From the NCBI RefSeq assembly GCF_963678975.1, contig NC_089274.1, positions 17,005,633-17,069,632 of the forward strand: a stretch of 64,000 nt of DNA, in the 5' to 3' direction. The translations under genes were made by a program, and so were the position numbers. This DNA comes from Dysidea avara (Eukaryota; Porifera; Demospongiae; Dictyoceratida; Dysideidae). This document shows, one piece after another, positions 3,697 through 64,000 of this stretch. The notes beneath the pieces were generated by a model that saw only the letters and a program-made list of their open reading frames with translations, did no database searches and had not been told where the DNA came from. The first letter of the stretch is position 1, and every line of letters begins with the position of its first letter.

Positions 3697-3810
3697 TTAA
3701 CAACACTTTGATGATCTTTCATGGCCAGTGTCGCGAAGCTTAATACTTGTGCGGTTCCTATTCAAAGTCTGTACCACAGGTTCTTGATGAGTACGGGTCA
3801 GCTGATGAAC
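3697..3810 (-). CDS. Gene A exon 7: prenylated C-terminal tail
   Basis: A canonical acceptor (ctctcacag) precedes 37 codons that start VHQLTRTHQEPVVQ, include NRNRTSIKL and stop directly after CysCys. The same tail motif (VH.L....EPVV....RNR.TSI) closes genes B and C, so this is certainly a family exon. It belongs to gene A by strand, phase and order, since no other family exons lie between. If it is not gene A's own, it would be an orphan exon. Confidence 0.75.
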   Translation of the reverse strand, partial: VHQLTRTHQEPVVQTLNRNRTSIKLRDTGHERSSKCC

Positions 3811-15800: not shown

Positions 15801-18800
15801 TTTTGGTCCTGACTCATTGTTACCTCTGAAAGAGGAATATTATAGCAAATATAGGCCTAAATTTATGGGTAACAAAGTGTCCACTGTAAAGAGGTTCGTT
15901 CCACTGTACTTGCAGCATGGTTTCAGGGTAGAGAGTAATGACTGCATGCAAATGGGCTTGATAGAAATAAATTCCAGGCCATAATTCAAGGTAATATGGT
16001 AGATAAGTTTATGCATCCTTGATTTCATGAATGCATGAGATAGCATCATCCAGAAGCCAACCATCCTAACAACGGAGATTTACCAACTGCTACTAGAATG
16101 TCATTAATGCTGGCTATAATATGAAAGTGAAGGGCTTAAAGTTCTACTCTGGTTGTTTAGACTTTTATAAATCAACTCCAAATTAACTTGCTCAAGTATC
16201 AACCATGTTTACACATGGCTTACGTAAAAGTACTTCCAATAATTCATTGGCCTACTTAGGCTATGCTGAATCTATGTCAACAAGTGCATTCTTTTGGCAT
16301 TGTGTACTTTGGCACTTCAGTTTAGCTTAACTGTGATCACACTAGTCAAATGAGAATCCAACAAATCTTGTCCCTCTTATATTTTCATGTACATATTAAA
16401 TATATCAGAGAAGACTCTACAATTTACACTGTCAGTACAGTGAAAATAGCCAATTGTTTATTACCATATATAGTAACATCCAGATAGACATTAAGGTGGT
16501 CCTTCTTGGAATGCTGGGAAGTGTTGAACCACACACTTACCTTCTTTACCATAAAATGTATGGCTTCCTGTATTCCCTTTCCTGTCTTGGCAGAGGTCTC
16601 AAAGTATCCTATAAATCCATGGTCCTTGCTGAACTGTTCTCCATCAAGCTGTCCATGGTCCACCTAACTCATGTAACACGAGTGGATACACAGCCCACTG
16701 AATTGACATTTACCTTGTTGGCTATTAACACAACGGGAATGGGGTCACCATTAGTCAGATAAACAGTATCGTCAATTTCTTCCTTCCATTGTAGACAATG
16801 TTCCATAGACTTCTTATCAGTGACATCATAAACCACCAATGCGCCTACTGCATCTCTGTAATAAGCCTAATGGTATTGAGTAACTTACTATCATGTACAT
16901 AGGAAGCTACAAAGGTACCTTGGTGATTGACTTGTATCTTTCTTGACCTATTGGTATAAATATACAATACAGAAAACTTCTCTTAAAGGACACTCCTAAT
17001 GAAGGACATAATAGAGTCCATATTACAAGATTTTGGTACACGTATATTACCTCCAGACATTTTTCTACCTCTGAAAGCTGAAAATCATTATAATATACAA
17101 GTAGAAGGAAAATTTAGGAATTTCAAAGTTGAAAGTAGTGAAACAAGGGAATAGCTAAAAAGTAGTGAAACAAGAGAGGTTTCCTATACCTGCAGATATA
17201 TACTAGCGGACCCCTATATGTACTTCAGCCTGAATTGGGGATCAAATATCCACTAGTATATCTGCAATTCCCTTGTTAGCTATTTTCTTGTTTCACTACT
17301 TTGATCAACTTTAAAATTCCTAAAAATTCCTTAAAATTCCTTCTACTTGTTTGTTTACTTTTTAAATAATATAATTATGACTAATGAACCTGTGCATACT
17401 GCATCAAAAGGGAGAATGATGTCAGGCATGCTAATTTTGCATCTGAATGTGCACCCAAACTATCAGTTAGCTATTACTGAAAAGCGAAGTCCCATTACAC
17501 TTCATTTTTAGCCATGTTCAGCCCATTATACATGTAGCATTACAGATAAAGAACAGTACAAGAAACACTTCCAGAATTAGTCCAGTCATTCTACAGAAAA
17601 TATCAATTTTTGTTATGTATGATAGTCAGCAGAGAAGAAGTTGTATGTGCTACAGCAAATCGACACCTTATCCCGTCAGTGAAAAGAAATGGGATGCAAA
17701 GCAACACAAAGGCAAGTCCATGATGGGTGCATTGTATATACACTGCAGTATGCCAAAAAGCACCAGTCAGGCTGAAGCGATGTCTAACAGTGAAAAAAGC
17801 AGCCCCATAGCCTTAGTGGTTGTTGAGTTACACTTGTCTGAAGGCATCAGGCAGTTAGTTAGTCAGTCAATTAGTAGAAAATTCTGCTTAAAAAAAAACA
17901 ATCTTATACTGCCAAGGCACCATGAAGGTATTGTGAGGCTGGTTTTGGAGTGACGTTTTTGGCCAGAAAATCCCAAATCTTCATGATTCCTAATATACAG
18001 CACTATCATACTGTGAAATGTACCTAACATTCTGTGTCTCAAAGTGATTTAACATAATGTGGGAAATTCCAACTGTACTTGAAAACACATACATACACAA
18101 CTAGTTACCTGCAGTGTCCCATAGGTGTAACTTGTATTTTGTGTCGTAACAAGTTAATTCTGTTGAATGGAAATCAAGCGGAATCTGTATGTAATTCACA
18201 AACTAAGGGATAGCTACAAATCTAAGTAGAGAAACTCACAGTTGGTCGATATGCGATAGAAAACTTATCATAAATGTATTGATTGAGCAGTGATGTCTTG
18301 CCAGTACTGGAGTCCCCAACGATCACAATCTTCAGTATCAGACAGTCAGATTTTATCTGATCAACACTTTGTCTTGATTTCAGCTCCTTAGGCTAACAAT
18401 GTATGCATTTACAATGACTTAAACATACAAACACGACTAACTTTATCGATATAATTATTTAATCCATCTTGAAGGCTACCGTTAGTCTGATGCTGTTGAT
18501 TTGATTCAAAACTAATAGACCGCACCTTGGTAAAACATGGAGAAACTGGACTGGGGTAATCTTCAGATTGCGACTTCACAAAGGTTGTATCAACAGTTGG
18601 ATCAGAAAACTTCTTTCTAGGGTTAACTCTATGGGAAATGTGAGCAGATCTTTCACGGAATGGTGAGAATGGTCGTGATGGTGCAGCGTCTGGCGTCATT
18701 ACCACAATGGGTGGCAGGCTTACACCACTATAGTCAGAAGGTAAAGAAAACTGTATGTTTATTCCAACGGACTGTTCAAGTGAGCGTTCATGTTCCGCAT

Positions 18801-19530
18801 TGTCAAGCACAAAAACATTAGCCCCGTCACCATCAACTTCATCATCAGTGCTAATATCAGTTGCAACACTACCAACACTTGTCTTTTTTGTAACCACAAC
18901 TCCATTGCCATTCCTACTTCTCCACAACGTATCTCTATATAGCAGAAAATCTGGGCTATGTGAGGGGCTCATTTGAGAATTCAGTTCTCCATTCTGCTGT
19001 TTTAGTGGTGCAGGAGAGTCAAAACTGCTGCTACGACGTTTAACAGAAAGGTGGGTGGCCATCCTAGCCTGAGCGCCTAACGAGGTAGATCTACCGGTCG
19101 TATCATCATCCTCATCTTCATCCTCCATTTCAATTAAGTGAAGGTTCTCGGCGATTAGCACATCTACGGCGTCTTCGTAAGCCTTGTCAAGTTTGTCTAA
19201 GAGTACGCATTGTCCAGTTTTCTTTAGAGCTCGCCTCAAATACCGCATTCCTTTGTAGCAGCCCTTGCCAGGGATTATGCTAGTTACTAGTAAACTCTTT
19301 CTGGTGAGCTCAGTGTTATAGTTGTTCTGAAGTTTTTCATTCTCCAGCCGCGTTAGTGCACCAATCGAGTACAACTGCAATACGGTTTCGAATAAGTTTA
19401 TCTGTTCCAGTATCTCAATCGTAGATATCTGCTTAAGTGCCTTGTCAGCAGCTGCATCGGATTTGAACTTTCGGTGAGGTCGTGACGGTGAAGGTGACGG
19501 TGACGGTGACAAGCTGCGAGATGAAGACAT
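3697..19530 (-). CDS. Gene A: CARD-like domain fused to a Rab32-like GTPase (complete, 7 exons)
   Basis: Exons, in minus-strand order: 19530-18442, 18392-18240, 18184-18109, 16947-16919, 16866-16714, 16663-16541, 3810-3697. Together they give 1737 nt, 578 residues plus stop. Every junction is GT-AG and phases match (0,0,1,0,0,0). The start is the first Met after an in-frame TAG 51 bases upstream. Residues 28-128 form a CARD-like domain; 130-363 are an acidic, Ser-rich linker; 364-541 are a Rab domain with P-loop GDSSTGKT (389-396), switch I Thr414, WDTAGQE (436-442), NKVD (499-502) and ETSAK (522-526). The tail ends in CysCys, a Rab geranylgeranylation signal, so membrane attachment is expected. 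The run NGDPIPVVLIANK and FSKDHGF.GYFETSAK resembles Rab32/Rab38. All GTP-binding motifs are intact, so it should bind and hydrolyse GTP. The last exon lies 12.7 kb away and is the least certain part. Confidence 0.85.
3811..5155. other. Gene A last intron, 3' part; no further exon seen
   Basis: No family exon was found here. A segment near 4605-4650 (GGTGGTAACC, GATGCTAACATCAAT) resembles part of the repeat at 52230-52320, so it is probably repeat debris. Confidence 0.4.
5155..6480 (+). repeat. R1 repeat copy interrupted by a foldback insertion
   Basis: R1 landmarks are the (CAGT)n run, ATTGACACC...AAATGGGACACAAAG, then GGCAAAAGGCACC, AAGCGACATC and CAGTTAGTCAGTAGAAAATT. Here the two halves (about 5155-5255 and 6240-6480) are separated by about 980 bp of unrelated foldback sequence. 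Confidence 0.7.
5255..6238. mobile_element. Foldback element inserted in R1
   Basis: The left arm has CTCACCTAATAGGTGG and, further in, GATTGTGGG; the right arm near 5915-5995 carries the inverse of both in the same order. The interior at 6040-6180 holds repeated CGCAGTC/AGTGCAATAT hairpins. It is bounded by TACATATATAT-type sequence. No transposase frame is seen. Confidence 0.6.
6542..7093. mobile_element. MITE with TACCGTACGGAGGGAAAC inverted ends
   Basis: The left end TACCGTACGGAGGGAAACTT is mirrored at the right end by AGTTTCCCTCCATACGGTA. Internal arms share ATTTGGCAAA-like sequence. A short hairpin (CGCTACTTGTC / GACAAGTAGCG) and a palindrome (TTCGAGGTGCACCTCGAA) lie in the middle. Confidence 0.8.
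7094..8685. other. No gene seen (gene A last intron)
   Basis: About 1.6 kb of AT-rich unique-looking sequence without a recognisable exon, repeat end or RNA gene. Confidence 0.4.
8686..8893. mobile_element. Palindromic MITE with ATACGGTAC ends
   Basis: Nearly the whole element is an imperfect palindrome. The left arm contains ACTAATTAAAGGGCGTGGCAC, and the right arm has the inverse with one changed base. Ends are ATACGGTACGTACGC and its partner GCGGTACCGTAT. Confidence 0.8.
8940..9810 (+). repeat. R1 copy, diverged, with partial palindromic head
   Basis: The head (GGGATCATAGAAATAA, AATGAAACAAGGGAGGT) matches the heads at 17090 and 59750. The body from about 9350 has TGGTGAACTAGTGCATAC, later ATCAGTTAGTTGG and AGGCATGTTTGGGCCT. 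Much diverged; no open frame. Confidence 0.6.
9811..10600. other. No gene seen
   Basis: Gene A intron. A short echo of the R1 3' end (GTGAGGCTGGTTTATAAGTG) near 10340 is the only thing recognised. Confidence 0.4.
10610..11345 (+). repeat. R1 copy with an open frame and a consensus splice donor
   Basis: The head ACTAGAGTAGGGACCATAGC is followed by GGTGAACCCACGCATAC, GGTATGCCAAAAGGCACC, the (CAGT)n run with GTAGAAAATTCC, and the end near GTCCCTACTATACAG. An open frame at 10725-11090 includes NEWDTKEDTGKS. CTG|GTAAGT at 11010/11011 fits a 5' splice site. No known protein is recognised, so this is treated as repeat. Confidence 0.75.
11630..11835. mobile_element. Small MITE with TACCGTAA inverted ends
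   Basis: The left end is TACCGTAAATGGGGAA and the right end, inverted, is TACCGTAAGCAGGGGAA. Interior arms around CAAAAGTTTCG / GAAAGTTTTCCC are only loosely complementary. Confidence 0.65.
12190..12365 (-). repeat. Partial R1 copy, minus strand
   Basis: GAATTTTCTACTGAGTGACTG and CTTCAGACAAGTGCAACTCAA are the inverse of the R1 (CAGT)n region and its flanks. Preceding TCAATAGGTTGCTATGG is the inverse of R1's CATAGCAACCTATTG. Confidence 0.7.
12366..13415. other. No recognised gene; short open frames 12709-13161
   Basis: Two plus-strand open frames of 69 and 80 codons abut at 12918/12919. The second holds VEVTQSGVPQSNHGILC and SLPMLLIYDQTAG. I do not recognise either; they may be remnants of a mobile-element protein or chance. 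Confidence 0.25.
13416..14942. mobile_element. TIR element with TATGTGACCC ends and an internal tandem duplication
   Basis: The left end TATGTGACCCACTGAGCGAA is matched, inverted, by TTGCTTGGCGGGTCACATA at the right. No transposase frame is seen, so it is non-autonomous. The ends resemble those of the MITE at 32422-32665 (ATATGTGACC). Confidence 0.7.
13802..14276 (+). repeat. Two tandem copies of a 237-bp unit
   Basis: The block from CATCTTTGTAGCTTG to AGATCTTGAATGGCAG occurs twice back to back (13802-14038, 14039-14276). The copies differ by a few bases, including one T in a T run, so the duplication is recent. Confidence 0.95.
14943..16540. other. No gene seen; possible MITE debris near 15660-15905
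   Basis: Gene A last intron. CTGTGAAACC at 15666 and TTCCACTGTAC at 15898 recall the ACAGTGGAACC-ended MITEs found at 23768 and 27090, but the pair is imperfect. Short open frames at 15329-15571 and 15840-16064 are unrecognised. Confidence 0.35.
16541..18392 (-). CDS. Gene A exons 2-6: Rab GTPase core
   Basis: The five exons are 153, 76, 29, 153 and 123 nt, matching gene B exactly in size and phase. They carry the P-loop exon, the exon ending inside WDTAG, the 29-nt QERYKSITK mini-exon, the exon ending in ANK and the exon starting VDHG and containing ETSAK. Introns are 55, 1161, 52 and 50 bp; the 1161-bp one holds a copy of repeat family R1. Switch I reads YRPT-IPLDF where most Rabs have PTIG, so the usual Gly is Pro, while the magnesium-binding Thr is kept. 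Confidence 0.9.
17090..18010 (+). repeat. R1 copy with palindromic head, in gene A intron 3
   Basis: The head (17090-17345) is an imperfect palindrome: AGTAGTGAAACAAGAGAGG on one arm and GTTTCACTACTTTG on the other. The body shows TGAACCTGTGCATACTGC, AAATGGGATGCAAAG, TATGCCAAAAAGCACC and a (CAGT)n-like run. Lies wholly inside the 1161-bp intron. Confidence 0.75.
18442..19530 (-). CDS. Gene A exon 1: CARD-like domain and linker
   Basis: This exon has 363 codons and ends at a phase-0 donor (AAA|gttagt). After an SP-rich start (residues 7-16), residues 28-128 carry death-fold hallmarks: LFETVLQLYS, then GALTRLENEKLQ, RKSLLVTSIIPGKG and LRRALKKTGQ, the last resembling the CARD helix 5-6 pattern (AL..TGQ..L). 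An acidic run (EDEDEDDD, 136-143) follows, then a Ser-rich linker. A segment at 256-304 (NIQF, D.SG, LP, RS.HISH..NP) is also present in gene B. A DED rather than a CARD is possible; the helix pattern looks more like CARD. The 49-bp intron that follows makes a separate gene very unlikely. Confidence 0.85.
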
Positions 19531-20270
19531 TTCCTTAACTGTTATAATCTGCGGTCTGTTAATATCATCATGCCGTAGCTACTTAGTTGTATGGTTTCCT
19601 ATCACGTGATGCTATCCTGACATTGTATCGACATTTTATGATGACGAGCCCTCGTATGACAGAGACCCTTGCAGAGACCTCAACCTGTAAAGTGCACTAG
19701 GAGTGAGACGTGAGGTTAAAATGAGTGAGATTTGCTTACTTATGCGTGAGGTCTCGTCTTAGTAGAAAAATTCCTGTAAAAATTGCAAAATTCGCAACTT
19801 TCCGGCTTTGGCTATTTTCAGTTATGGACTACTTCAGCCATTAGAGCACTGTTTAGTGTTTTTCCAAGAAGTTTGAAGTGAAAGCAATGCGTGAGATGGA
19901 AAACCATGTGTGAGACAGCAATCCAATGAGATAACTTGTTGAGGCCCATATTTAAGATAATTTGTTGAGGCCCATATTTAAGATAACTTGTTTTTGCCGT
20001 TTATTATGTACTGTTTTATTCCTAAAAAAACAAAAAAACAATCCAATGAGTGTGTCGCACGCGTAATGCGTGAGAGTTGAGGTGTCTGCGTATGATGACT
20101 TCCTGCCAGGAATCTGCTCACCTTAGGGATACGGATACGGATACGAGGTGAAAATACCGCGAGATATGATATCATCAATGCTCCTCTCGGTTTCTAAGTG
20201 TTTTATGGAAGTTCGAGGAGGTGAAACGATTAAGGTATGTTTCTGTGCTATATAGCTAGCTTTTTGCTTC
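19531..20270. other. Upstream region of gene A; short tandem duplication
   Basis: Contains the presumed gene A promoter, but no TATA or other element stands out. GTTGAGGCCCATATTTAAGA occurs twice in a row (about 19938-19985). GATACG is repeated near 20130. Confidence 0.4.
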
Positions 20271-20273
20271 CAA

Positions 20274-20640
20274 TTGTCTAGATGTTACCAGCTTCATGAA
20301 CGTGAAAAAAGACGGGCATATGATGAACGTGTTAGAGAGGTTGAGAGAGCTTGCTTTTCACCATTGGTGTTTGCAGCTACTGGTGACATGGGGCCCACTA
20401 CTACAACAGTTTTTAGGAAGCTTGTTTCAATGTTGGCTGAGAAGCGCAGCATTAATTACAGCAAATGCTTATTCTGGCTGCGATGTAGGGTTTGTTTTTC
20501 ATTGTTAAAATCTGCAGTGATGTGTTTGAGGGGTCATCGCTCTTCAGTTTGCCGTCCATCAACTAGTAATATTGATCTAGCCTACTCTGAGGGTCGCTTG
20601 GAGTCTGGCGGCCTTGTTTGATTACTGGTATTTCCAGCTG
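20274..20640 (+). pseudogene. C-terminal fragment of a mobile-element protein (fossil)
   Basis: An open frame of 115 codons reads LHEREKRRAYDERVREVE, then SPLVFAATGDMGPTTTTVF, MLAEKRS, WLRCRVCFSLL and RGHRSS. From memory this pattern recurs at the end of long mobile-element ORFs in cnidarian and sponge genomes. The element class is not certain, and the upstream part is absent. Confidence 0.55.
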
Positions 20641-23600
20641 TCCAGCACTTTAACACCTAGTGCTGGGGGTGGTGGCAAGGGCAGTCCATCTAGCCCGGGA
20701 AAAAAAAAGAAAGCTATATAGAATGGCTGACCAGCTTTATTTTCCCCATATTGATAAAAGCGAGATCGAGGAGTCCTTCACTTGGCTGGAAATTTATATT
20801 TTTTATTTTATTTCAGAATGATGCTGTCTCCTTGTTTAAACAACAATTTTTTAAAAAGTGAAAATTAGATTAAATCAGAAATCTGGAATTCATGTGGAAC
20901 GTCAAATGACGGTTCAGTGGTATAATAGCTGAGCCAGTGAATCACTAATAAACTAGCTAGGTACGTAATTGTACTCAGGTGAATCCATACCGTGTGTATA
21001 GGATTTGTCAAATCAAGCATTTTCAGGCGGTCAACATTAATTTTTTTCAAAACACTGGTTAAGGCCACTCCAAATGAGACTAGTAGTTTCCCGTCCTGAT
21101 GTTTTCGTTATTCAGTGCGGGCGGGAGGCTTATTTTCATTATTTATTATCAGGCTTGTTGTAATCACTTACCAGATTTAATCATTACAATTACCCAAAAT
21201 TTGGTAATGATTAGTAATTAATTACAATTACAATTACAACAAGCCTGTTCATTATTAAAGGTGTGACTGCTCTATCAGAGTATCTTGATCTTGAGAGGAT
21301 TTCAAGGTCATGAAAATGGCTTCTTTGCAAGCTAGCAACCACCAGAACCATTCATTTTTAGGTTTCATTGTGCTTTTTAGCAATGCAAAATAAAAGGCTC
21401 CATGAGAAGTTTCCAGAAAGCAGCACAGGAAGTGGTTTTGGAAAAATAATGACAATAATGACATGTAATGCGGGTGCCCAGACGTGATGCAGGTGGAGGA
21501 CGGGGAAACTACAGTCGGCCTAAACCTTAAAAATTAAGAATTATGCAATCTAATATCTGTTTAATATCTTTTTCGAAACCTCAGCTTAGTTAGGCTGATC
21601 ATAAAATCTCATCATTCCTTGTCCAATGCAAAATGTATGTATTTTACACTACATACAAAAACACTAACTTACAACCTTTAACTCACAAAATCTCTAGCAC
21701 ACCATACAACAAAAAGCCATTGAATTTCTCTATCCAATGCCATGCAACCGTACGAATGGGAAAATGATGCCATGGCGACAGTTATTTACTGCTGAAGATG
21801 ACAATATGTGCTCCATACATGAACCTATTGGAAAATTTAATTATCTCGGTGGGAAAATCCCAATTTACAAGTTGTTATCCTCAACCAAATTCTCTAAATT
21901 TGGTATCATTCTATGCATGAAGGATGCTAATAAGACGCTGACTGTACAAATTGTTAAATGGGTTAGTTTACAGAGATATGTTTAAAAACGTGTTTTTGTG
22001 AGCATTCTGAATATGTAAATTTTGCAGTATTTCACCTTGTTTAGAAGACGGTGTTATTTTATATGAAACAGGCGTAACCTATTCAGAAATCCGCAATATC
22101 TTACAAAAGTTTTGATATGCTTTTTAAGTTCAGTGCATGTGCCAGCAGGTTTGTTACAGCGTGGCACAGTTTGAAACCACATATGCCTGTGATGACCCAC
22201 TGTGGAGAAGAAAAGTGTTATAAAAACTACATGGAGTACTACTGCTGGCAACCCTAGGTCCATAACAATCCTGTCATTTTGACAAAATTGATAATAACTA
22301 ACCAACAAGCCACTTTGACAGGGAGTTGAAAGGTGAGAAATTATTATTATTGTTGTTGTGCAGACCTCAAAAAAGAGTAAGTTGCTAGGCTGTACTTGAA
22401 TTGGTAGATGTATAGATTTAAAGTTTCAATATGTTTACTATTGAGCACTCCTCAATACATTTTCTATTAATTTTATTTGTCAAGTTTTTTAAGCATGATA
22501 TGATTGGTCATTTTAATTGCACTGTATCTAATATGAATGTATGAATGAAGTAAATAAAAGTTTGGTGCTTATATCAAAATTTCACTTAGCTGCTCTACTA
22601 CTACTACAGTAGTTAACCAATTTACCTGAAATTTTTACTGCACGTTGAGCTCTATGCAGTGCATCTTCAGTGCAAAATTAGAATTGTGTAGTTTAGCTGC
22701 TACAACTGTCTGGTAATTAATACATCCAGTAATTGGTCAATTACTCTACTAACACTGCATGAACACCACTTGTTCTTACAAACAACTTTGTTCAACAGTG
22801 ACATACTGACCTATACCTGATAGCTACTGCATGCAGCTATGGAGAGAGATAACAATCTTGTATGAAGGTGAGAGCAATGAAAACTGAAGTGAAGAGAAGC
22901 AGGTTAGCTAGAGCATAGACAAGCTGATAAATGGTGAAGCTACACCAGCTGCACTATTAAACACCTTAGTATTATAGTTGTAGAATGTACATGGTTATGC
23001 TTATAACCACATGCAGTGTTTATGGCTAGCTACCGTATTTACTTAGCTGGCAACTAAATTTATCCATCAATGTATCATGCAACCAATAAATGAACAGTAT
23101 GTTATATTATGTAGTAGCATGAATATCAGTTTCTTATGTACCTATAGCCCTATGAAAAGACTTCTAGAACTAAGTGACATCATCTTTATTCTTCAGCACA
23201 TCCAGAGAAATCTATATAGCTGATTAGCTGTAAATAATAACATCTATATGACTAGCAGACTCAGTTTCATAGTTACAAAAGTAGTAATGTTCAAGATACT
23301 CTAATGGAACGAATTTGCAACACTAACTGTAACTGCTCCGTGACTGTTTCAATGAAAATCACTCAGGAAAAACAGCAATTTGTATACAAAAAATTATAAA
23401 ATGTCTACATTAAATTTATAAAATACCTATGGAGCCCTGTTCATATATAGTGCACCATAAAGCCTGGATCTATCCTGGACTGATTAGTAATGTGGTGTTG
23501 ATAACAGGCAAATTGAATATATTTTTCTGGTGATGCATACCATTCTAATTAGACACACTCTTTCTTGTTGGCCTACTTGATGATCACAGTTTTTGTAAAA

Positions 23601-23767
23601 CCTACTGTCATTTGTTTTACACAGCTAAGTACAAGAGCATACATACATGTGATCCAATGGTTATTGGATGTTATTCATATAGACACAACTATAATTTGGT
23701 TGCTGTACACGGAAAATAAAGCACTTATTTCTTTATATGACATTTTAGTTCTAAACATACGGTGGTA
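20641..23767. other. No confident gene
   Basis: AT-rich intergenic sequence. A MITE-internal motif (CTCTATCAGAGTATCTTGATC) occurs near 21275 and AATTACAATTACAATTACAA near 21215. Short open frames (for example 21737-21985) are unrecognised and lack splice support. Confidence 0.35.
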
Positions 23768-23922
23768 TACAGTGAAACCTGTCTGTTAAAGCCAAAATTA
23801 ATTTTCTGACCATTGAAATAAGGAAGTGGGTGGCATTAAGCAGGTCACCGAGACCTTGTACACAATTGGGATTTTTACAATAGATAGGTATACAGTGATC
23901 TGGTTAGACAGGTTCCACTGTA
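23768..23922. mobile_element. MITE with TACAGTGRAACC ends
   Basis: The left end TACAGTGAAACCTGTCTG is mirrored by AGACAGGTTCCACTGTA at the right. Same class of ends as the copy at 27090-27241. Confidence 0.75.
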
Positions 23923-26172
23923 CTAACAGTACTATATACGTATCTTATCTCCGTAATATACAGTATTATAATCCAAAGGGACGTGCAACTAATAAGAGAG
24001 AAAGGTGAGAAGGCAGCTGCAGGTATGCAATTCTTTGTACTAGATCTTGACAGTTTACTGAAATTAGTAAAATACAGAACTCTGCATGAAAGAGGAGCCA
24101 CAACAGAAGGAGTTATGGGATGAACAAGTATATCACAAGATGAATGGGTTATAATGACCTTACATTAACATGTTGTGAGGTACACTGTAATTAAAGAACA
24201 AGTATACAGTGCGTCTTACAACAATTTTTATGTAAGTTTTCAATAAAGCAGTCAGAATTGTTTGGTACATCCACGACTACTCCAATAGAGCAGTGCTCCT
24301 GTATCTTCCTCTTTGCAATTTTCTTGTGTGTCTATGCAGCATGAACTCTCAAAGCTCTGATGCAAGTGCTATACGACAACCAAAGTGACCCAGGGGAGAC
24401 CCCCTATTAACAAACCTGAATAATATGTGTTAGTTTAACAGTCAATAAAAAGTATAGAGTCTTATCGCCATATTTCTAGCCCTCAAAAGATTTTTATGAG
24501 TCTATATAATTATAGACATCTGAATGGAGAAGGCTTCAGGGAAATGCCGTTTTATAGCTTTATAGCCATTTTTTGCATATTGGATGTGTATTGTAACTAT
24601 TGGCTTCAGGCTTCTTGTCAAACAATGGTTTCTCTCACTTTGCATGTATGTATACACCATTTAAGTTTTAACCCTTTTTTTTTTAATTTGAGCAAATAAA
24701 GTGTGGTGAAGATAAAATTCAGCAGACAAGGCTGCCCTAATAGAACAGTCACTGAATTGTAAAAGGGACTGCCTTGAAAAAAACAAAAAAACTGGCTATG
24801 CAAAGAGACTGTATGATTGTGCCCCTAAAGACTTGTATGAATGTGTAACAATATTAATAAAGCATTCATAAACAGGCTACAGTCTATGAACTTTCATGTT
24901 TCAATCTTCCTTGGTAAAGAATGTTGCTGTTTTAAGTAGTGTAAAATACAAAGGGATTTCCTGAAACACCCGGGAACCCCAAAGTTCAATACATTTGAAC
25001 ATAGGAGACATTGTCAAGGGGGCAAGAAATTTTAAGGTAAAATAGTGTTTATTCCACTAAGAGGAGAAGAATAGAACTCTAGTGCACAAATTATATTCAT
25101 TTGCATAACTTTGTTTGGGATATACACTTTCTAAGACTCTAGTTGGATATCTTCTCAGAATTTTTTTTTAAATCAGTCCCCTCCTAGGTTGAATTTGGGA
25201 GCATTTTTGATTAGCTAACAACAAAGTGTATGCTTTGCAAGGCATATAAAAATTAGATAGCCTGTCTGAGATAAAACCTGTTTGATGGTAAATCAAAAAT
25301 AAAGTGATATTGTTATAAATAGAATTGTGACTGTTCTATTAGAGTAGTGACTGCTCTTTTAGAGTATCTCGATCTTGGCGCACAAGAATTTCAAACTGAT
25401 TTCCCTTCTAGCTCACTTTCTTCACAGTGTACAGTTTATAACTGTTGTACTTATGAATGCATGATTCCAGTTTCTGGTGTCAATATAGTCCTGTAGGTCC
25501 AAGAGAAGGGCCAGAGGAGGGGTTAATCCCCTCTTGGCCCAACCTCAGATCCGCCTATACATTTGAAGCCATTTCATAGAGACTTTATGTGCAGTAACAA
25601 AGTATTTGATTTTCATGATCTTCCAGCAGCTGATTTGTATGCATGTCTTACATGTGCACGTGTACATATACATTCATATGTGTGTACAGTATGTCTTAGC
25701 CCACTTATAGTGAAGGAAATTGTATACGTAATGCAAGAGTTTTTAAATTAATTAGTAGATCCTAAACTAAGGACTTTGAAAATACACTGTTTAGAGTTAT
25801 AATAAAACACCTTGACTATAGATACATGGATTGAGTATGTTACTTATCAACGTTGCTGTTTTTTGTTTGTTTGTTTGTTTTTTGAATGGAGGCTGAAGTG
25901 GTTTGGGCACACAGATTGTGTACAAAAAATGACCATTCTATATGAGCCAAGAAAGATATGATGAGGTAATGTATATGCCTGAAATATTACAGTATCAGTT
26001 ATAAGTTGTGCATGTTCCAGCACAGCTGGAGACAAATACTAAGGTGTTGTGGAATTTTTCTAGAGGCAGATGATGTCATCAGTTTTGTGGGGCTATTGGC
26101 CTGTTGTTAGCCTAAGTACCCTGTTGCCATTGTACACTAGTCAGCTTTCAAGCTTACGTATCTACCTGAGAT
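23923..26172. other. No gene; MITE-family debris at 25320-25560
   Basis: TCTTTTAGAGTATCTCGATC near 25355 and CAGATCCGCC near 25547 suggest a decayed member of the GGCGGATCC family. Otherwise AT-rich, unrecognised. Confidence 0.4.
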
Positions 26173-26659
26173 CAGTGTTGGGCAAGTTACTTTGTAAAAG
26201 TAACTAGTTACATATTACTTGCAACTGAACTATTTAGTTACAGTTACATATTACCCATAAAATAAAGTAACTAATATTACATATTATATTACTGTGTCCA
26301 CAGCCTTAAGCTGTCACGAGTGAAACTACCACCTTATCACGTGACATGATTGTGTTGCTGGACAATGTGCAAATCTTGGTTATAAGTAAGAAGCTGGTGA
26401 ATATGGCTTCATTCAGTAGGCCTCATTACTTCGTTGTGGCTAGGCGTTACTCAGAAGATAACTAACGAGATTAGTAACTTCGTTACTTGCAGTAATAATA
26501 TTATGTAATATTAGACTCGTTACAGTAACTATATTACTTAGGTAACGCGTTACATTTGTAAGTAAAGTAACTTGAGTTATATTACCTGTTTTTATAGCAT
26601 ACTTCGTTATAGTTACCACAAAAGTAATAATATTACATAACGCGTTACTCCCAACACTG
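26173..26659. mobile_element. hAT-type MITE with CAGTGTTGGG ends and 8-bp target duplication
   Basis: Ends are CAGTGTTGGGCAAGTTACTT and the inverse AACGCGTTACTCCCAACACTG (slightly diverged). CCTGAGAT occurs directly on both sides (26165-26172, 26660-26667), a perfect 8-bp duplication typical of hAT transposition. The interior is rich in GTTACnnnTAAC motifs. It lies just downstream of gene B's stop. Confidence 0.92.
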
Positions 26660-26788
26660 CCTGAGATTCTGTGTATACACATCCTATTCTGCAGTTACTA
26701 GAAAGTGAGCATTAAATATAAACACATGTACTGCAAATAAAAAGGTCAAATACACATTATCAAGAGTTAAAATTTTATATAATTCTTA

Positions 26789-26911
26789 TCAGTTTTTACA
26801 GCATTTTTTCTCTTTACTGTCATTATTAAAGTGTAACATGATACTCGTGGAACGATTTCTATATAATGTTTGTACAACGGGTTCTTTGTGGACACAGGAC
26901 AGCGCATGAAC
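26789..26911 (-). CDS. Gene B exon 7: C-terminal tail with CCKN
   Basis: The acceptor ctgttgcag precedes 40 codons beginning VHALSCVHKEPVVQ, with YRNRSTSIM, then a Lys/Glu patch and CCKN before TGA. Two adjacent cysteines near the C-terminus are the usual Rab geranylgeranylation site. This tail is the hypervariable region in most Rabs but is conserved among these paralogues. Confidence 0.88.
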   Translation of the reverse strand, partial: VHALSCVHKEPVVQTLYRNRSTSIMLHFNNDSKEKKCCKN

Positions 26912-29095
26912 CTGCAACAGTAAAACAAGGTAACAATTGCAATAATTGAAATAGGATATGATAGATAGTGCTTCATTATGTATACCTTAAATGGCATAAC
27001 AATGGTTGTATACCCATATTCGTGCATGCTGTGCAGTAACACTATGCAAGATATAAAATGTCCTGAAGTTCAAGTATGTATGTAAGTAATACAGTGGAAT
27101 CCCTCTAAGCTGGACACCATTGGTTTTGTCCTTTGAAAGGAGGTGTCCTTAGTTCAGGAGTATAATTATTATGAACTAGTACGGGACCCAGACAGATGTC
27201 CTTTATAAAAAGATTCTCCACAATTCAGGGTTTCCACTGTAAATTTTTATTAGTATTAGAATTACAGTTACAGTTATACTACATATATGGTATTATGATG
27301 GTCAAGCTGGTATGCAGGGGAGTTTCTTAACCACCCACCTTTTTCACCAAAAAATGTACAGCTGCTTGGATTCCTTGTCCAGTTTTAGCTGATGTCTCAA
27401 AGTATCCCACAAACCCATGGTCCTTGCTGAACTGCTCTCCATCAAGGTGCCCACAATCCATCTAAACCATAGTGTACAGATGGTGCAAATTCAATGACAT
27501 CATTTTTTATGTTTGCTGGTAACCTTGTTGGCTATTAAGACCACAGGAATGGGGTCTCCATTTACTAGTCTCACAACATCATCAATTTCTTTCTTCCATT
27601 GTGAGCTGTGCTCTAAGGACCTCATATCAGTGACATCATAAACCACAAATGCTCCCACAGCGTCTCGGTAGTATGCCTAACAATGCCATCATGCTGTACA
27701 TAGACACTCTATATAGCCAACACTTTTTGTTACCTACCGTAGTTACTGCTTTAAATCTTTCTTGACCTACACGTACATGCATGATAATTACAATAATATA
27801 ATCTGGCATTATGTTACAACAATTACCTGCAGTGTCCCACAAGTGTAGTTTGTATTTCTTGTTGTAGCACTCTAATTCTGCTGATTGAAAGTCAACCAGG
27901 GTCTATGTGATACAATGATCAAGTGATAGATAAAAGTATAGCTTACTGTTGGGTCATATACAATGGAAAATTTGCCACTGACATATCGGTATAGTAGTGA
28001 TGTCTTTCCTGTGCTGGAGTCCCCAACAATTACAAACTTAAGTACTAGTGATTCACACTCTAATTGATTAATGCTGTGAAGCGATGTCAGTGTGCCAATC
28101 TGTAATTATTGCATTTAATACTGTACAATTGTTTGAATAAGATCACAACTCACTTTGTTGTTGTCTTCTCTCATACTTTTCTCTGTTGACATCTGTGAGA
28201 GTAACTGTTCTTCCTCGAATATCTCATTCACTAAAGCACTGGGAGCAGATGACTTTGCTCTTTCTGGTACTTTGTAAATATAAGGATTGGACTGGTGAGA
28301 AATGTGCCCAGATCTCTGACGGTAAGGTGTCAATTGAACAGAGGGTAAACGGTTACCACTAAGATCCTCAGACATACGAAACTGAATGTTTACTTCAAAT
28401 GACGGTATACATAAGGAAGTTGGTTGCTGCTGCTTTTGCACTATGGTATCAAGTAAAATACCACCATCATCATCACCAGAACTAGTCGTAATGCTTCTTC
28501 TACTCATGTTACCACTTGGAGTTCTTTCTCTGCTAGCTGTAGTATTACAACTGTCTTCGTGTATTCCACCATCTCTGTACATATTCAGACTCAGGTGTTC
28601 TGAAGTAATGCTTGCATGGCAGACACTGCTACAACTAGCAGTAGCAACAGAATCAACACGAGGTATCACCTGAGAAGACTGGTCCGCACCTGTTGTTTCA
28701 TTTGACCAAGGACCCTGACGGATTCTGAGGTTCTTAGCAATCAACTCATCTACCGCGCCTTCATAGGCCTTGTCGAGTTTGTTTAAGATTGGACGTTGCC
28801 CAGTTTTCTTCAAAGCTCTCCTCAACATTCGCATTCCTCTGTAAAGACCTTTACCAGGGATGATGCTAGTTAATAATAAACTCTTTCGACGAAGTTCAAC
28901 GGTATGGACGTTCTGGAGTTGTTGATATTCTAGCGACGTTAGTCCTCCTTCTGTCGAGTATAGATGAAGCACAGTTTCAAACAGGTCCAGTTGTTCTAAC
29001 ATCTCCATAGAGGAAACTTGTTTGAGCGCCTTACCAGCTGCTTCATCACATTTAAACTTTTGCTTCGATTTTTTGTGGCACAGGGTCTGGGACAT
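26789..29095 (-). CDS. Gene B: CARD-like domain fused to a Rab32-like GTPase (complete, 7 exons)
   Basis: Exons: 29095-28154, 28099-27947, 27902-27827, 27766-27738, 27676-27524, 27461-27339, 26911-26789. Together 1599 nt, 532 residues plus stop, all GT-AG. The ATG is the first after an in-frame upstream TGA. Residues 17-122 are the CARD-like domain, 123-314 a Ser/Thr-rich linker, 315-492 the Rab domain: P-loop GDSSTGKT (340-347), WDTAGQE (387-393), NKMD (450-453), ETSAK (473-477). The tail ends CCKN, a CCXX prenylation box. Introns are 44-62 bp except the last (427 bp), which holds a MITE. It is the tandem neighbour of gene A on the same strand, about 7.3 kb upstream of A's start. Function is inferred: a GTP-switched, membrane-bound protein with a death-fold adaptor end. 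Confidence 0.92.
27090..27241. mobile_element. MITE with TACAGTGGAA ends in gene B intron 6
   Basis: The left end TACAGTGGAATCCCTCT is mirrored by GGGTTTCCACTGTA. It explains why this intron is 427 bp while the other gene B introns are 44-62 bp. Confidence 0.75.
27339..28099 (-). CDS. Gene B exons 2-6: Rab GTPase core
   Basis: The exons are 153, 76, 29, 153 and 123 nt, the same sizes as in gene A. The core reads VIVGDSSTGKTSLL, YDPT-TLVDF at switch I, LHLWDTAGQERF, AYYRDAVGAFVVYDVTD, QWKKEIDDVVRLVNGDPIP, then VLIANKMD, FSKDHGFVGYFETSAKTG. In the ETSAK exon I count 33 of 41 residues identical to gene A. All five G motifs are present, with the catalytic Gln at 392. Confidence 0.92.
28154..29095 (-). 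CDS. Gene B exon 1: CARD-like domain and linker
   Basis: This exon has 314 codons and ends at a phase-0 donor (AAA|gtgagt), 54 bp before the P-loop exon. The CARD-like part aligns with gene A almost without gaps: GKALKQVSSMEMLEQLDLF, GGLTSLEYQQLQN, RRKSLLLTSIIPGKG, LRRALKKTGQ, LDKAYEGAVDELIA. The linker is unlike gene A except at 234-271 (VNIQF, D.SG, LP, TP, RSGHISH..NP), which is conserved and may be a binding motif. Confidence 0.88.
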
Positions 29096-29647: not shown

Positions 29648-32421
29648 TTAAATAATTGCTAGTTTTTGTTTGAACTGATCAATATCATTGGAGTCAATCA
29701 CATTTTGGGGTAGATCATTCCAGATTTTGATTGCCGAAGGGAAAAAGGAGTACATATAAGAATCAATCCGTGTCATTGGTTGCATAAATCTCATATTATG
29801 ACCTCTGGTACTATGTACAGTGGTAATGGGTGTCAGAAACAGATTTGCTGGGATATCAACAAGGTGGTTAATTATTTTAAACATCATTATGGCTTTCAGT
29901 TCATCTCTGCATCGCACAAGTGTAGGCCAATTAAGGTCTGTAAGCATTTGTGTGACGCTAGCGTAACGGGAGTAGTTGCTGGTCACAAATCTAGTTGCTT
30001 GTCGTTGTGTTCTCTCAATCATATCAACTTATCCCTCTTAGTATGAGGTGCCCAGACAACAGTTGCATACTCTACAATTGGCTTAACCATTGCTTTGTAC
30101 AACCTATCTTTAATTGTTGGTGTACAATTGTGGAGGATACGCTGAAGAAAACCTTTAGTTCTGTTAGCCTTGGAAGTTATTTGTTTTATGTGTTCTGACC
30201 AGGATAGATTTTGGCTTATTGTTACACCCAAGTATTTGGCATGGTTGACTTCCTTGATTGGTTTATTTTGAATATTATACTGAGCTAGTATTGTGTGTTT
30301 CTTGTTAGCTATCCTAAGAAATTTGCATTTTTGTGGGTTAAACACCATTTTCCAATCGTCTGCCTATTTTCCCAGTAAGTCTAAATCCTTCTACAACTGA
30401 TTGCAGTCCTGTTCTGTGCAAATGGTGGCATAAAGTAACACATCGTCAGCATATAACTTGATTTTGGATGATATGTTATTTGGTAAATCATTTATGAAAC
30501 AGAGAAACAAAAGTGGAGCAAGGACAGTACCTTGAGGTGCACCAGAGGTAACTGCTGTTAAGTGGCTCTGTTGACCTTCAACCACCACACACTGAGATCT
30601 CTGCAGTACAAAGTCTTTAATCCAGTCAAGTAAATTACCTTGGATACCATAATGGTGGAGTTTATGGAACAGGTGTTGATGGGACACTTTGTCAAATGCT
30701 TTTGAAAAATCTAGTAGTCCGACATCGGTTTGATTATTGTTATTTAAGCTTTCGGCAAAGTCATTGATTGTCAATAGTAGCTGAGTTTCACATGAGCGAC
30801 CTTGTCTAAATACATGTTGTTGATCACACAGAAGATTATATTTAGCAAAACGGGAGTAAATATGTGAATACACAACGTGCTCTAACAGCTTTGAACAGAT
30901 ACATGTTAATGAAACAGGCCTATAATTGCTAGGAAGAGAACGATCACCCTTTTTAAAGAGTGGTACAATATTTGCCCTTTTCCAATCTAAAGGTAGCGAA
31001 CATTGTTGTAATGAGGCTTGAAAAATGAAGGCTAGGGAGGGAGAAATAATTTCTCTAGTTTCTTTCAGTAGACGGGCTGGTATTCCATCAGGTCCACAAG
31101 CTTTATGGATATCCAAAGATTGCAGCAGCTCAGAAACACCATTAGTGTCAACTATGATAGGGTTTATGTCCGGTGCAGATCGGACATGTAACTCTGGAGG
31201 AGTCTCTGTTGTAATTGGAGTAAATGCTGATGTAAAGTACTCTTTGAGTGTTTGTGTTTTGACTAAGCTATCATTGATTACAACATCATTAACCTTTAAT
31301 GGTGCCACACCACAGTGGTCTTTCTTTTGACTCTTGATGTAAGTCCAAAGCTTTTTTGACACAGAACCATTTGAATCAACTAGCCCTTCACTATAATCAT
31401 TGTAAGCTTTACGACATTCCTGTTGAACTTTGTGTTTAAAACTACGATAAGCATCCCAGTGATGATTACAATTTGAGCGCCTGGCTAAGTTGTAAAGTCG
31501 TTGTTTTTTACGAGATAAGCGCTTAATGTGAGAGGTCACCCATGGTTGCTTTGTATTAGTGGAAGAAAGCTTAGATGGTACTTGAGCTAAGCACTTGAAG
31601 CACATTTGTTTGAATTCATTCCATAACACCTCCACTGGTGTGGACAAAGAGTATTTACTTAAAAAATCATCACTAAATTGACTTATGATTTCTTTTATAA
31701 CTACCATATCTGCTCTATGCCAAAGAAATGACTTCCTTTTGGTGGGCTGCTGGTGAGTGATTGTAACAGAAGATTCAGTTAAAATAGCCTCAAGGTCACT
31801 AATGCCTGCAACAGGATTGCAACTGTGTATAAGGGATGGTCTGTTGGTAATGAACACATCTAGAGTATTGTGTCTTCTGGTAGGGAAATCAACTACTTGC
31901 GAGAAGCCATATTCCTGCACAAAATTAATCATAGTGTCACATACAGCAAGGGGGTATGCAGCACCATCTGTACAACCATTAACCCAATCAATGTTTGGTA
32001 AATTGAGATCCCCAACCAGCCAGATAGGAGAGTTGGAATAAGTTGTTGTTATAGGTTTGAAAAAAGGTCACATAAACTTTCAACACTACAAATATCTTTA
32101 TTAGGAGGTCTGTAGAAAGAACAAATAATTAAGTTTTGGTTGTTTAATGTAATCTCACAAATTACTGCTTCATTGTCATGGTCAAAACTTAATTCCTGGT
32201 ATTGCGGCAAGCTAACAGTACTCCTCCATACCCATCAGATCTATCCTTCCTGAAAACATGATATCCTTCAGGGCAAAAATTCGCTGCTTAAAACATCAGG
32301 TGTCAGCCATGTCTCAGAAACTGCTACAATGTCTGGTTTATATTCATCCATAAGTGCACAGAAAGAAGCTCTCTTTGATAAAATACTTTGGCTATTTAGG
32401 AAAATCAGCTTGAAGGAGCTT
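29648..32421 (-). pseudogene. L-alpha ORF2: endonuclease and reverse transcriptase, broken
   Basis: Endonuclease parts: NSQSILSKRASF, PDIVAVSETWLTPD, ICSFYRPPN, VGDLNLPNIDW, then SGISDLEA-type sequence. Reverse-transcriptase parts (31932-30391): LPLDWKRANIVPLFKKGD, SNYRPVSLTCICSKLLEH, LLDFSKAFDKVSHQ, SGAPQGTVLAPLLF and LYADDVLLYA, which holds the catalytic Asp pair. C-terminal part 30348-29648: HAKYLGVTIS, KPIVEYATVVWAPHT, NWPTL..RRDELK-like region. Stops and frame changes split it into at least four pieces. Confidence 0.9.
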
Positions 32422-60757: not shown

Positions 60758-63700
60758 TCATGTTGTTAAACAGCATTTTGTTTCTTTTTCAATACTGCTA
60801 AGGGATTGCCTAGGGAAATCCAATTTGATACTTGTGGATCGATTCCTGTTATATATTGGCACCACAGGCTCTTTATAGATGTAAGACAGTTCATGAACCT
60901 GTAACAAAAAGTAATGCAGTGATGTAAAGAAGAGATTATAAAGTAACTGACTACTACACTTGCCTCTAATGCAATGTATGCGTAGCTGCACCCTATCTAT
61001 TTTAAACATACATTTTAAGTATTTTACAATGGGAGCTTATATGTTGCGCTAATCAAAAGATCATAAATATTGATCCAAAAAGTTTCATCGTGATGAAGAA
61101 AGTAGTTTGGTAGTATACCCTCAAAGTGACCCTAACCATTTCTATCAGATCACGAAATTTGAAAAAAGCAAATTTTCTTCTATCATGTATGCTTTCAGCA
61201 AAGTGAACTCGGAAAAGGCTGACCAGCTGCATGCAATTCTCAAGTTTTAAAATAAGCATTACCGATGAAAGAAGAATGGTCTTATCATTCTTTTACTAGA
61301 TTCCCTGAATGCATTATATCTAATTGCTTTGTCAAAAGAATCAAATGTCAGGAGAGGTAACATTCACAGCCGCAGTGAAATGTAGCTATAATAATGCTTA
61401 TGCCTACTCCGCTTTTGACCACAGCGTTATTTTGTCAATAGTATATGCTGGCATACAAATTGTTTGCATGCAAGAGTTCATAACATTTGTATTAAGGAGA
61501 GTGCATAAATATATAGAAAGTAACTCACAAAAGCAGTGCTGCAGACAAAAATTAATATTAAAACCTTTGCAAAGGCTTTAGTCACCATATTAATTTTCTG
61601 TATAGCTACTCTGTGGTAAGATAAAAGTTGAATATATGCAAAGTGATGCCTTCATATCAGTTTAACACAATGAGATATTGATACTCTACTTATCAGTGGC
61701 AGAGTGTTAATTTTGTATGGGTTATACTGGCAGTTAGACACTCTCCCTCAAACAAATATTACGCATTCTTGGTATTTAGTGAAAAACAGCTAAGCTGTAA
61801 AAAAGGATGTACTTTTGAGATTTTTGAAGGCTCTATACTAGCTGTAAAGCAAGATTTGAGAGAGCTATCATGTAGTGTTTGGGAATTTTGTGACCACAAG
61901 GGAAGTTTTAAGGTAATCACAAGGGAAGTTTTAAGGTTACCACAAGGGAATTTTGTGACCACACACCTTTTTCACCATGAAGCGTACAGCTTCTCGGATT
62001 CCTTGTCCAGTTTTAGCCGATGTCTCAAAATAGCCTGTAAAACCATGGTCTTTACTAAACTGCTCCCCATCAAGTTTTCCACGGTCCACCTATAAAGACT
62101 TTCAATGGCAATTTATTTGGCTTGACCCATATTACTTTGTTGGCTATCAACACCACTGGTATTGGGTCATCATTCTCCAGTCGTACAACATCGTCAACTT
62201 CATCCTTCCACTGCAAGCTATGCTCTAAAGATTTTTCATCAGTGACATCATAAACTACGAATGCCCCCACAGCACCTCTGTAGTAGGCCTAATGATAATA
62301 TATATACATATATATATATATATATGTATATGTATACAAGTACACAGAAAAATTTTGAGTTTCATCTAGAGTAGGCCCGGACCATAGCACATCAATAAAA
62401 AGTACTGAAACAAAAGTTGGAGTAGTGCACGATATTAAATCACAGTAAAACAATAAGAAGTGTTATATCCCTACTGTGCATTTCCATTATGGTATCTTGA
62501 GCACAGTAGGGATATAACACTTCTTATTATATTACTGTGATTTACAATATTGTGCACTATTCCAACTTATTTCAGTACTTTTTATCAATGTGCTATGGTC
62601 TGGGCCTACTCTAGTTGAAATTCCAAAATTTTTTGTGTACTTGTTTGTTAACTTTTTAATAAATAATTATTATGACTGGTGAACCCACGCATACTGAATT
62701 TGAAAGGGTAGCACTAATTTCACAACGCTTGATGCCTTTTGTGACTTTAACTTAAACCCTAACCCTAACTTTGGACTACTGATCATGAGAAATCATTCTT
62801 TAGATAGTAGAGGGAATTTTAGCGCCTCTATACTATCTTGAAACCTCGTGAAACCAATTGTGGTATAACATATTAATATAGACGCGTGGGGGCACCCACG
62901 GGCATGAAGTGTTGTGAAATTAGTGTAAACCCTGCAACCCACACATACCGAAAGGGTTGGTTTCACGCGCCCCAGTTATATAAATTATTGTCTGAAAAGT
63001 GAAATATCCATTACTTGTTGGCTATGTTCAACCCGTTACACAGCAGTATGAATCAAAAACTGTTTTAAAAACACCTCTGCAATCGAAATAGCCACTATGA
63101 AAAATACGGACAATTTTTGTTACGAAGGGAAGCCATCATGTGCTACCACCAAATCGACACTTTTCGCTATCAGCAAAGATGAATGGGACACAAAAGAGGA
63201 CACTGGTAAGTCCATGAAGAATGCATTGTACGTACTGCGGTATGCCAAAAGGCACCTCTCGGGCTGAAGAGACATCGAACAGTGAAAAAATCAAGCTTGT
63301 AGCCTTAGCTGTTATCAAGTTATGCTTGTCTGAAGGCATCAGGCAGTCAGTCAGGCAGTCAGTAGAAATTCCATTGAATAAAAATTTTTTAAATTCCGTA
63401 GCAACTTTTTGAAAGCGTTTCGGGTCGATCTGAAAGTTTGTTTGGGCTTAGTTTTACATAACCAATATTGCCTCATCATCGTCTGGGAAAATTGAGGCTA
63501 TTTTTTGGGTGATGTTATTTCGTGGGCCACACCTACTCCTTTGTGGTCCCTACTATACACTACTATTGTAGTGTATGATAAATTATTTTAAAATTCCGTA
63601 GCAACTTGTTGAAAGCGTTTTGGGTCAATCTAAAAGCTTGTTTGGGCTTAGTTTTACCTAACCAATACTGCCTCATTGTTGTCGGGGAAAAATTGAGGGT

Positions 63701-63974
63701 GAAGTTATTTCATGGAACATGCCTACTCCTTTTTGGTCCCTACTATACAGTACTATCGTACTGTATTATATATATATATATATTTATACAAACCTTCTCA
63801 TTACCTTGGTTAACGCCTTGAACCTTTCTTGACCTATGTATGCGTACACATATAAGGTTATGTGGCTGCACATGATGCATTCCAGTGAATATATATACCT
63901 GCTGTGTCCCACAGGTGCAATTTATAGTTTGTTTTGCGACACTCTAATTCTGCTGTATGGAAGTCAAGTAGTGT
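60758..63974 (-). CDS. Gene C: Rab32-like GTPase, 3' part of a third family member (5' end beyond window)
   Basis: Exons: 63974-63899, 63833-63805, 62288-62136, 62089-61967, 60898-60758, giving 173 residues plus stop from the exon-3 equivalent onward. Visible parts are TLLDF, LHLWDTAG, QERFKALTK, AYYRGAVGAFVVYDVTDEKS, NDDPIPVVLIANKVD, FSKDHGFTGYFETSAKTG and a tail ending KCCLTT (CCXXX prenylation type). Sizes and phases of exons 3-6 equal genes A and B. The ETSAK exon matches gene A at 34 of 41 residues. The P-loop exon and any CARD exon would lie to the right of 64000. Intron 4 (1516 bp) is filled by a long palindrome and an R1 copy. The frame is intact throughout what is visible. Confidence 0.9.
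60899..61966. other. Gene C intron 6; no repeat end identified
   Basis: 1068 bp between the ETSAK exon and the tail exon. GGGAAGTTTTAAGGTAATCA and GGGAAGTTTTAAGGTTACCA are a short tandem duplication at 61900-61942. Confidence 0.45.
62355..62640. repeat. Near-perfect palindrome of about 280 bp (R1 head)
   Basis: AAGAAGTGTTATATCCCTAC on the left arm is followed, past a loop of about 35 bases, by GTAGGGATATAACACTTCTT. Pairing extends outward through AGTACTGAAACAAAAGTTGG / CCAACTTATTTCAGTACTTT and CATAGCACAT / ATGTGCTATGG to ACTCTAGTTGAAAT at the edge. Confidence 0.92.
62641..63590 (+). repeat. R1 copy in gene C intron 4
   Basis: GGTGAACCCACGCATACTG, AAATCGACAC, ATGAATGGGACACAAAAGAG, CTG|GTAAGT at 63205/63206, GGTATGCCAAAAGGCACC, AGTCAGTCAGGCAGTCAGTA and GGTCCCTACTATACAC. 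It is interrupted by a smaller MITE at 62712-62925. Confidence 0.85.
62712..62925. mobile_element. MITE with CACTAATTTCACAAC ends inside R1
   Basis: The left CACTAATTTCACAACGCTTG and the right GAAGTGTTGTGAAATTAGTG are inverted. The interior has GATAGTAGAGGGAATTTTAG / GCGCCTCTATACTATC arms and three CCCTAA units. Confidence 0.85.
63389..63770 (+). repeat. Tandem duplication of the R1 3' end, about 200 bp unit
   Basis: TTCCGTAGCAACTTTTTGAA to GGTCCCTACTATACAC is repeated as TTCCGTAGCAACTTGTTGAA to GGTCCCTACTATACAG. The second copy is slightly shorter, with small deletions. Confidence 0.85.
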
Positions 63975-64000
63975 CTGTGTAGTTTATGACAAATATGAAT

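Follow-up and report, generated by a model that had tools for sequence, protein, structure and literature searches.

The genome of the sponge Dysidea avara contains a tandem array of four genes, here called D, A, B and C, in which an N-terminal CARD is followed by a Rab32-like GTPase. Genes A and B lie on the minus strand of the window, a stretch of 64,000 nucleotides (contig NC_089274.1, hereafter C3; C3:17005633-17069632) of the 550-Mb D. avara assembly that was used for all whole-genome searches. Gene D lies in the left flank of the window, and gene C begins to its right, so that the CARD and P-loop exons of C are outside it. That a CARD joined to a Rab32-like GTPase is the identity of these genes is, in our view, very nearly certain. 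The proteins consist of a CARD of ~110 amino acids (aa), a linker of 130-230 aa whose composition suggests disorder, an intact GTPase of the Rab32 branch and a Cys-Cys tail; this is a new architecture made from two known domain kinds. An original prediction, made from the DNA alone, had described A and B, and both genes are present as claimed, with the CARD-like motifs (IIPGKG... and RRALKKTGQ) and all of the G motifs (GDSSTGKT, the switch-I PT, WDTAGQE, NKVD/NKMD across a splice junction, and ETSAK) in place. The two genes are not independent copies, as had been supposed, but paralogs, since four such genes stand in tandem. Gene A was thought to end at 16541, but this base is the end of an exon, and the last exon, ending in KCC, is found at 3810-3697, beyond an intron of 12,730 bp. 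A CC tail had been assigned to both genes; A has one, whereas B ends in KCCKN.

The gene models argue strongly that CARD and Rab belong to one gene. Each of A-D has seven exons, the first encoding the N-terminal domain and linker, exons 2-6 the GTPase and exon 7 the tail, and the lengths of exons 3-6 (76, 29, 153 and 123 nt) are equal in all four copies, which is more than chance. The intron between exons 1 and 2 is in phase 0 throughout (40 bp in D, 49 bp in A, 54 bp in B and 66 bp in C); the lengths predicted for A and B were exact, and both of these introns are GT-AG and phase 0 on both sides. Two NCBI proteins of D. avara match the window and its left flank. Our model of A agrees in every residue with the corresponding NCBI protein (P0003, 578 aa), and for D the NCBI acceptor of exon 2 lies 15 nt later than ours. 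The reading frame of A, B and C is closed by a stop 3-9 nt ahead of exon 2, and exon 2 lacks a Met upstream of the P-loop; hence, the Rab has no start of its own in these three genes. Ten homologous exon-1 open reading frames (ORFs) were found, one of which (P0009) is gene C itself, and seven of the other nine (P0002, P0005-P0008, P0010 and P0011) have a terminal [K/E]-V-S, which fits read-through of a conserved donor. An alternative is that the CARD exon and the Rab are separate genes that have been wrongly joined, or are joined in rare transcripts only: intron retention would yield a stand-alone CARD-linker protein, read-through adding 10-21 residues before a stop; the NCBI models are labelled isoform X2, which implies further isoforms; and exon 2 of gene D has one Met ahead of the P-loop. 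The short phase-0 intron kept in four of four models, the missing start in A, B and C, the identical NCBI model of A and the read-through ends all oppose this alternative, which we consider highly improbable, and the original view that this is not a mis-joined pair stands.

Between paralogs, both halves evolve under purifying selection, with ratios of nonsynonymous to synonymous substitution (dN/dS) over six pairs of 0.08-0.18 for the CARD and 0.05-0.16 for the Rab (dS 0.8-3.0). The linkers of A-D align at only 22-41% identity. A linker motif, R-x-R-S-x-H-I-S, is kept in all four paralogs (in A at window 18634-18657, minus strand), and R-x-R-S-x-H-I-[S/C/F] occurs in 8 of the 10 homologous ORFs, one being gene C. 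One might guess that this motif is a docking site for a kinase or adaptor.

A CARD is a six-helix death fold in which helix 1 is split or kinked. A second AlphaFold2 (AF2) run on the N-terminal domain of A (window 19141-19476) gave a model with a predicted local distance difference test score (pLDDT) of 93.6 and helices at residues 7-16 and 20-23, followed by five further ones; the predicted fold is that of a six-helix CARD with a split helix 1. Structure searches with this model ranked CARDs first, with those of RAIDD, Apaf-1 and caspase-9 among the best matches (14-28% identity in the alignments). These three proteins have other partner domains, and the D. avara domain differs further in lying below Pfam CARD detection. 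In HHalign comparisons, the score of the family against CARD rose as the profile grew, from 29.4 for a seven-row alignment (A3, including A-D), to 40.3 (probability 93%) with the addition of two relatives, E and F, and to 60.2 (97%, within the range of true CARDs) with five exons from C10 and gene G, all of which are described below. Scores against DED, DD, PYD, globin and EF-hand were at most 19.5, and none of 1,000 column shuffles reached 29.4. By these profiles, the domain is closer to CARDs than to other death folds.

Several results weigh against this assignment. Pfam CARD (PF00619) matched neither A nor B at E-values up to 10 and none of the seven rows of A3, although its cut-off of 23.9 bits is a detection threshold and not a property of the fold. 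Single members scored within the shuffle range by HHalign (B, 14.0; A, 16.3; C, 22.1; D, 23.7), and a 12-row profile, at 29.5, brought no gain over seven rows. A PDB sequence search with the domain placed the RAIDD CARD at the top with an E-value of only 0.19, and in a two-row search the same CARD came fifth (0.74), behind designed proteins. The best Foldseek E-value was 0.073, with none under 0.001. Two of the five models from the second AF2 run reached a pLDDT of only ~75, and a first run with six rows was poor (54.5); that first model was set aside as of low confidence, its structure matches being mixed helical with CARDs in 0 of 50 rows. The original prediction had called for profile searches and structure prediction. 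Pfam was silent, but the confident AF2 fold and the top rank of CARDs in the structure searches identify a CARD, and the profile evidence is moderate directly and strong through relatives in the same genome. An unrelated helical bundle is opposed by the fold ranking, the profile controls and the transitive sequence links and is a far-fetched alternative.

A search of the whole genome with the N-terminal domain of B returned A-D and two weak matches on C14 (E = 9e-4 and 0.0028), namely E and F. These match Pfam CARD at 3.9e-4 and 1.7e-4 (20.8 and 22.0 bits), just below the cut-off. As a query, F recovers A, C, B and D (5.7e-5 to 0.018) and also finds four places on the Pfam CARD search's own list. 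In both E and F, exons of a divergent Rab lie 2-6 kb downstream of the CARD exon in the same orientation, with a retroelement between in E, and this gene order makes the two loci candidate CARD-Rab fusions. For the Rab of F, the best PDB matches are not Rab32 but Rab26, Rab11B and Rab27A, and the scores of many other Rabs differ from these by just a few bits. In gene G (C3:19.41 Mb, plus strand), a CARD-like exon is followed by a phase-0 donor, and the acceptor of the P-loop exon is compatible with it. The joined Rab product of G ends in NNKCC and matches Rab32 best, at 88 bits, with 63 bits for the first Rab from another branch; its nine best PDB matches are Rab32/38/29. In profile comparisons, the CARD-like exon of G matched the enlarged family profile of 20 rows at 88% and human CARDs at 62%, and the seven-row family at only 6%. 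Pfam found no CARD in this exon, the best match being SpoIVA_C (8.2e-4, below that family's cut-off), and a separate Rab start is possible in G because an in-frame Met lies upstream of the P-loop exon. At C10:3.50-3.95 Mb (minus strand) we observed five CARD plus linker exons of similar style, each with a donor-like [K/E/R]-V-S read-through near its end. Two of the five match Pfam CARD (1e-4 and 0.0018) and three do not; a search of ~1.5 kb to each side of these exons revealed no Rab exon, and a 4-kb stretch at one of the five gave none either.

In the GTPase half, motifs G1-G5 are intact in all four tandem genes, as are the switch-II Gln and the switch-I Thr, and the top Pfam domain of P0003 and P0004 is Ras (1.4e-44 and 5.8e-44). 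In a PDB sequence search with the GTPase of gene A, the nine best matches were Rab32, Rab38 and Rab7L1 (Rab29), at 148 to 128 bits, followed after a gap of 18 bits by Rab7 at 110 bits. The predicted Rab32 branch is thereby borne out, and the best PDB sequences for A and G suggest that, among Rabs, the GTPase is closest to Rab32/38/29. Rab32 has a Cys-Cys C-terminus; we know of no ordinary Rab32 with an N-terminal CARD or a linker of 130-230 aa. The tails of A-D (CC, CCKN, CCLTT and CCLSSA) carry cysteines that could be geranylgeranylated.

Not all observations favor this plan. As prenylation signals, the tails of C and D depart further from the canonical form. A Rab32-like paralog of D. avara on another contig, P0021 (424 aa), has a long N-terminal extension but no CARD. 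To the right of gene C there are four further Rab32-like exon matches (C3:17105909-17136976, minus strand). At the two loci inspected, no CARD was found in the 3.0-3.5 kb taken, and both likely have a low-complexity N-terminal exon. As P0021 and these two loci have no CARD that we could see, this Rab lineage does not depend on having one. The base plan may be a Rab32-like gene whose first exon is long and of low complexity, the CARD having been gained or lost in a subset.

The original prediction knew of no described CARD-Rab family, and none turned up in our full-text searches of open-licence papers. Among 1011 candidates, 266 long proteins contain a similar Rab at E-values up to 1e-20. Pfam CARD was absent from the 120 of these that were listed, which is a weak negative because Pfam also misses the CARD of P0003 and P0004. 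When two partial coordinate lists were compared by eye, CARD and Ras exons were not seen as neighbors, but this says little, since A-G are absent from the comparison too. Six long Rab proteins were inspected and rejected; four have two GTPase domains or pieces, the others are P0022 and P0021, and none match the CARD family profile. P0022, a EukProt protein from another eukaryote, is a fusion of ankyrin repeats to a Rab32-like GTPase; VARP, a Rab32 effector, is reported likewise to bind via ankyrin repeats (PMC4059916).

Some known systems resemble these genes in part. Zebrafish Gbp3 and Gbp4 also have a GTPase and a CARD on one polypeptide, but the GTPase is of the guanylate-binding protein (GBP) type and the CARD is C-terminal, whereas in D. 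avara the GTPase is a small one of the Rab32 branch and the CARD is N-terminal; caspase-1 activation by Gbp4 is reported to require GTPase activity, and reaching the Asc speck to require the CARD (PMC4932187). No GBP domain is listed among the Pfam matches of P0003 and P0004. The genome-wide survey by Klopper et al., in the part available, puts the number of Rabs that have a further domain at three; the large Rabs Rab44 and Rab45 resemble the D. avara genes in having it N-terminal to the Rab, but it is a pair of EF-hand motifs in place of a CARD (PMC3425129). Pfam detected no EF-hand in P0003 and P0004 at E-values up to 1. The NLRC proteins of D. avara itself are expanded and have an N-terminal CARD, but with NACHT and LRR in place of the Rab, according to the available part of a published annotation (PMC12909245), the main text of which does not contain the whole words 'rab' and 'gtpase'. 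Roco proteins (AP-GTPases), e.g., DAPK1, are apoptosis proteins with a Ras-like GTPase switch, but as excerpted they carry COR with the GTPase, whereas the D. avara CARD joins a Rab with C-terminal cysteines (PMC8195603). No COR domain was found in P0003 or P0004 at Pfam E-values up to 1, and a Roc profile matches more weakly than Ras.

CARDs normally reach membranes via a transmembrane anchor, as in MAVS, or rely for their assembly on STAND ATPases, such as Apaf-1 and NLRs. If a CARD is hard-wired to a Rab, membrane identity and the GTP cycle would become the input of a death-fold signal. In the mechanism that we propose, the tail would be geranylgeranylated by the Rab machinery, and a Rab32-type exchange factor would load GTP and the protein would dock on endolysosomal or lysosome-related membranes. 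Docking would concentrate and expose the CARDs, which may recruit further CARD proteins to that membrane or seed their assembly (caspases, NLRCs or adaptors), such that nucleotide state and membrane identity would gate a local death-fold signal; a four-copy array with diverged linkers may supply versions with different triggers or partners. Prenylation, GTP switching, the membrane site, the CARD partners and the outcome are what we infer from the domains present. We give this GTP-switched, membrane-tethered platform, which draws on knowledge of the two families, an even chance of being correct, and the same even chance applies to the whole statement of CARD-Rab identity plus platform mechanism. 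Were the proteins to work as their anatomy suggests, these animals could switch on death-fold signaling at a chosen membrane, and the model is testable in ordinary cell lines. A Rab32-BLOC-3 antimicrobial pathway, controlled by Rab32, is reported in macrophages (PMC7810368), and the fusion therefore points to a direct link between vesicle-borne defense and CARD signaling. In the sponge Amphimedon, a death-fold adaptor is described, in part of PMC13012725, as supersaturable in a DAmFRET assay. A broader proposal, which we advance only tentatively, is that prenylated GTP-gated CARD proteins are undescribed signalosome seeds in which Rab membrane identity controls death-fold assembly, expanded and diversified in D. 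avara and relatives (A-D, G and the divergent E and F) as a cell-autonomous defense against intracellular microbes and symbionts, or a gatekeeper of them, alongside NLRs.

It is also possible, although we think it unlikely, that the CARD serves trafficking only, as an oligomerization or autoinhibitory module that clusters the Rab into membrane domains without a role in death or immunity. There are precedents for large Rabs that carry an additional N-terminal domain (Klopper et al. 2012, PMC3425129, in part), but potential CARD partners are plentiful: the published annotation, as available in part, has 39 CARD genes and 20 CARD-NACHT-LRR (NLRC) genes (PMC12909245), and Pfam CARD matched 149 of the 150 exons scored, of 331 candidates in the genome, at E-values up to 0.01. 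These 149 exon matches compare with the 39 CARD genes of the published annotation (PMC12909245, in part). The CARD-Rab genes show that domain counts by Pfam, such as those 39 genes, can overlook divergent CARDs that occur in a new architecture. A trafficking role would suit the better conservation of the GTPase half between paralogs (74-80% identity versus 60-73% for the CARD) and the lack of a CARD in P0021. CARD-only inhibitors damp death-fold signaling, and CARD-Rab proteins might similarly act as decoys that sequester CARD partners on membranes. The same anatomy would fit, and tandem expansion with diverged linkers would suit the buffering of many NLRCs; however, a decoy needs no complete nucleotide switch, yet all four genes keep complete G motifs, and this reading seems to us quite improbable.

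Table 1. Features of the CARD-Rab genes in window coordinates
Feature	Position	Strand	Basis or remark
Gene A, whole	19530-3697	-	Seven-exon model
Gene A exon 1: start ATG, CARD, ~230-aa low-complexity linker with RERSAHIS motif	18442..19530	-	Identical to NCBI P0003
Gene A CARD, exon 1 residues 22-130	19141..19467	-	AF2, structure ranking, HHalign of family
Gene A intron 1, 49 bp, phase 0	18393..18441	-	
Gene A exon 2: P-loop (G1), without preceding Met	18240..18392	-	
Gene A exon 3: switch region up to WDTAG (G3)	18109..18184	-	
Gene A exon 4: QER...	16919..16947	-	
Gene A exon 5, through ...LIANK (G4)	16714..16866	-	
Gene A exon 6: VD of NKVD, ETSAK (G5)	16541..16663	-	
Gene A exon 7: C-terminal tail, end SSKCC	3697..3810	-	Same in NCBI's protein
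Gene B, whole	29095-26789	-	Seven-exon model
Gene B exon 1: CARD and linker (RQRSGHIS motif)	28154..29095	-	
Gene B CARD (exon 1)	28721..29056	-	62-70% identity to that of A; row in alignment behind fold
Gene B intron 1, 54 bp, phase 0	28100..28153	-	
Gene B exons 2-6, Rab32-like G domain	28099-27947, 27902-27827, 27766-27738, 27676-27524, 27461-27339	-	
Gene B exon 7: tail, end KKCCKN	26789..26911	-	
Gene C, part within window, Rab32-like, end KCCLTT	60758..64000	-	
Gene C exons 3-7	63974-63899, 63833-63805, 62288-62136, 62089-61967, 60898-60758	-	

Other sequences in the window include three stretches at 52025-55891 (plus strand) that are 73-91% identical to the P0021 gene type; one has an in-frame stop (SFF*NSSAAF) and the last ends in SSTKGCCS, and these matches are likely a decayed copy. 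A short additional Rab32-like G5 fragment, YFETSAKNGKGFKQAIYFKVE, is present at 57975-58037 (plus strand). Rfam and tRNA scans of the window gave no matches. Between the tandem genes lie pieces of a reverse transcriptase and endonuclease of the non-LTR retrotransposon type, at 30391-32067 and 37540-38307 on the minus strand and at 47068-47730 on the plus strand.

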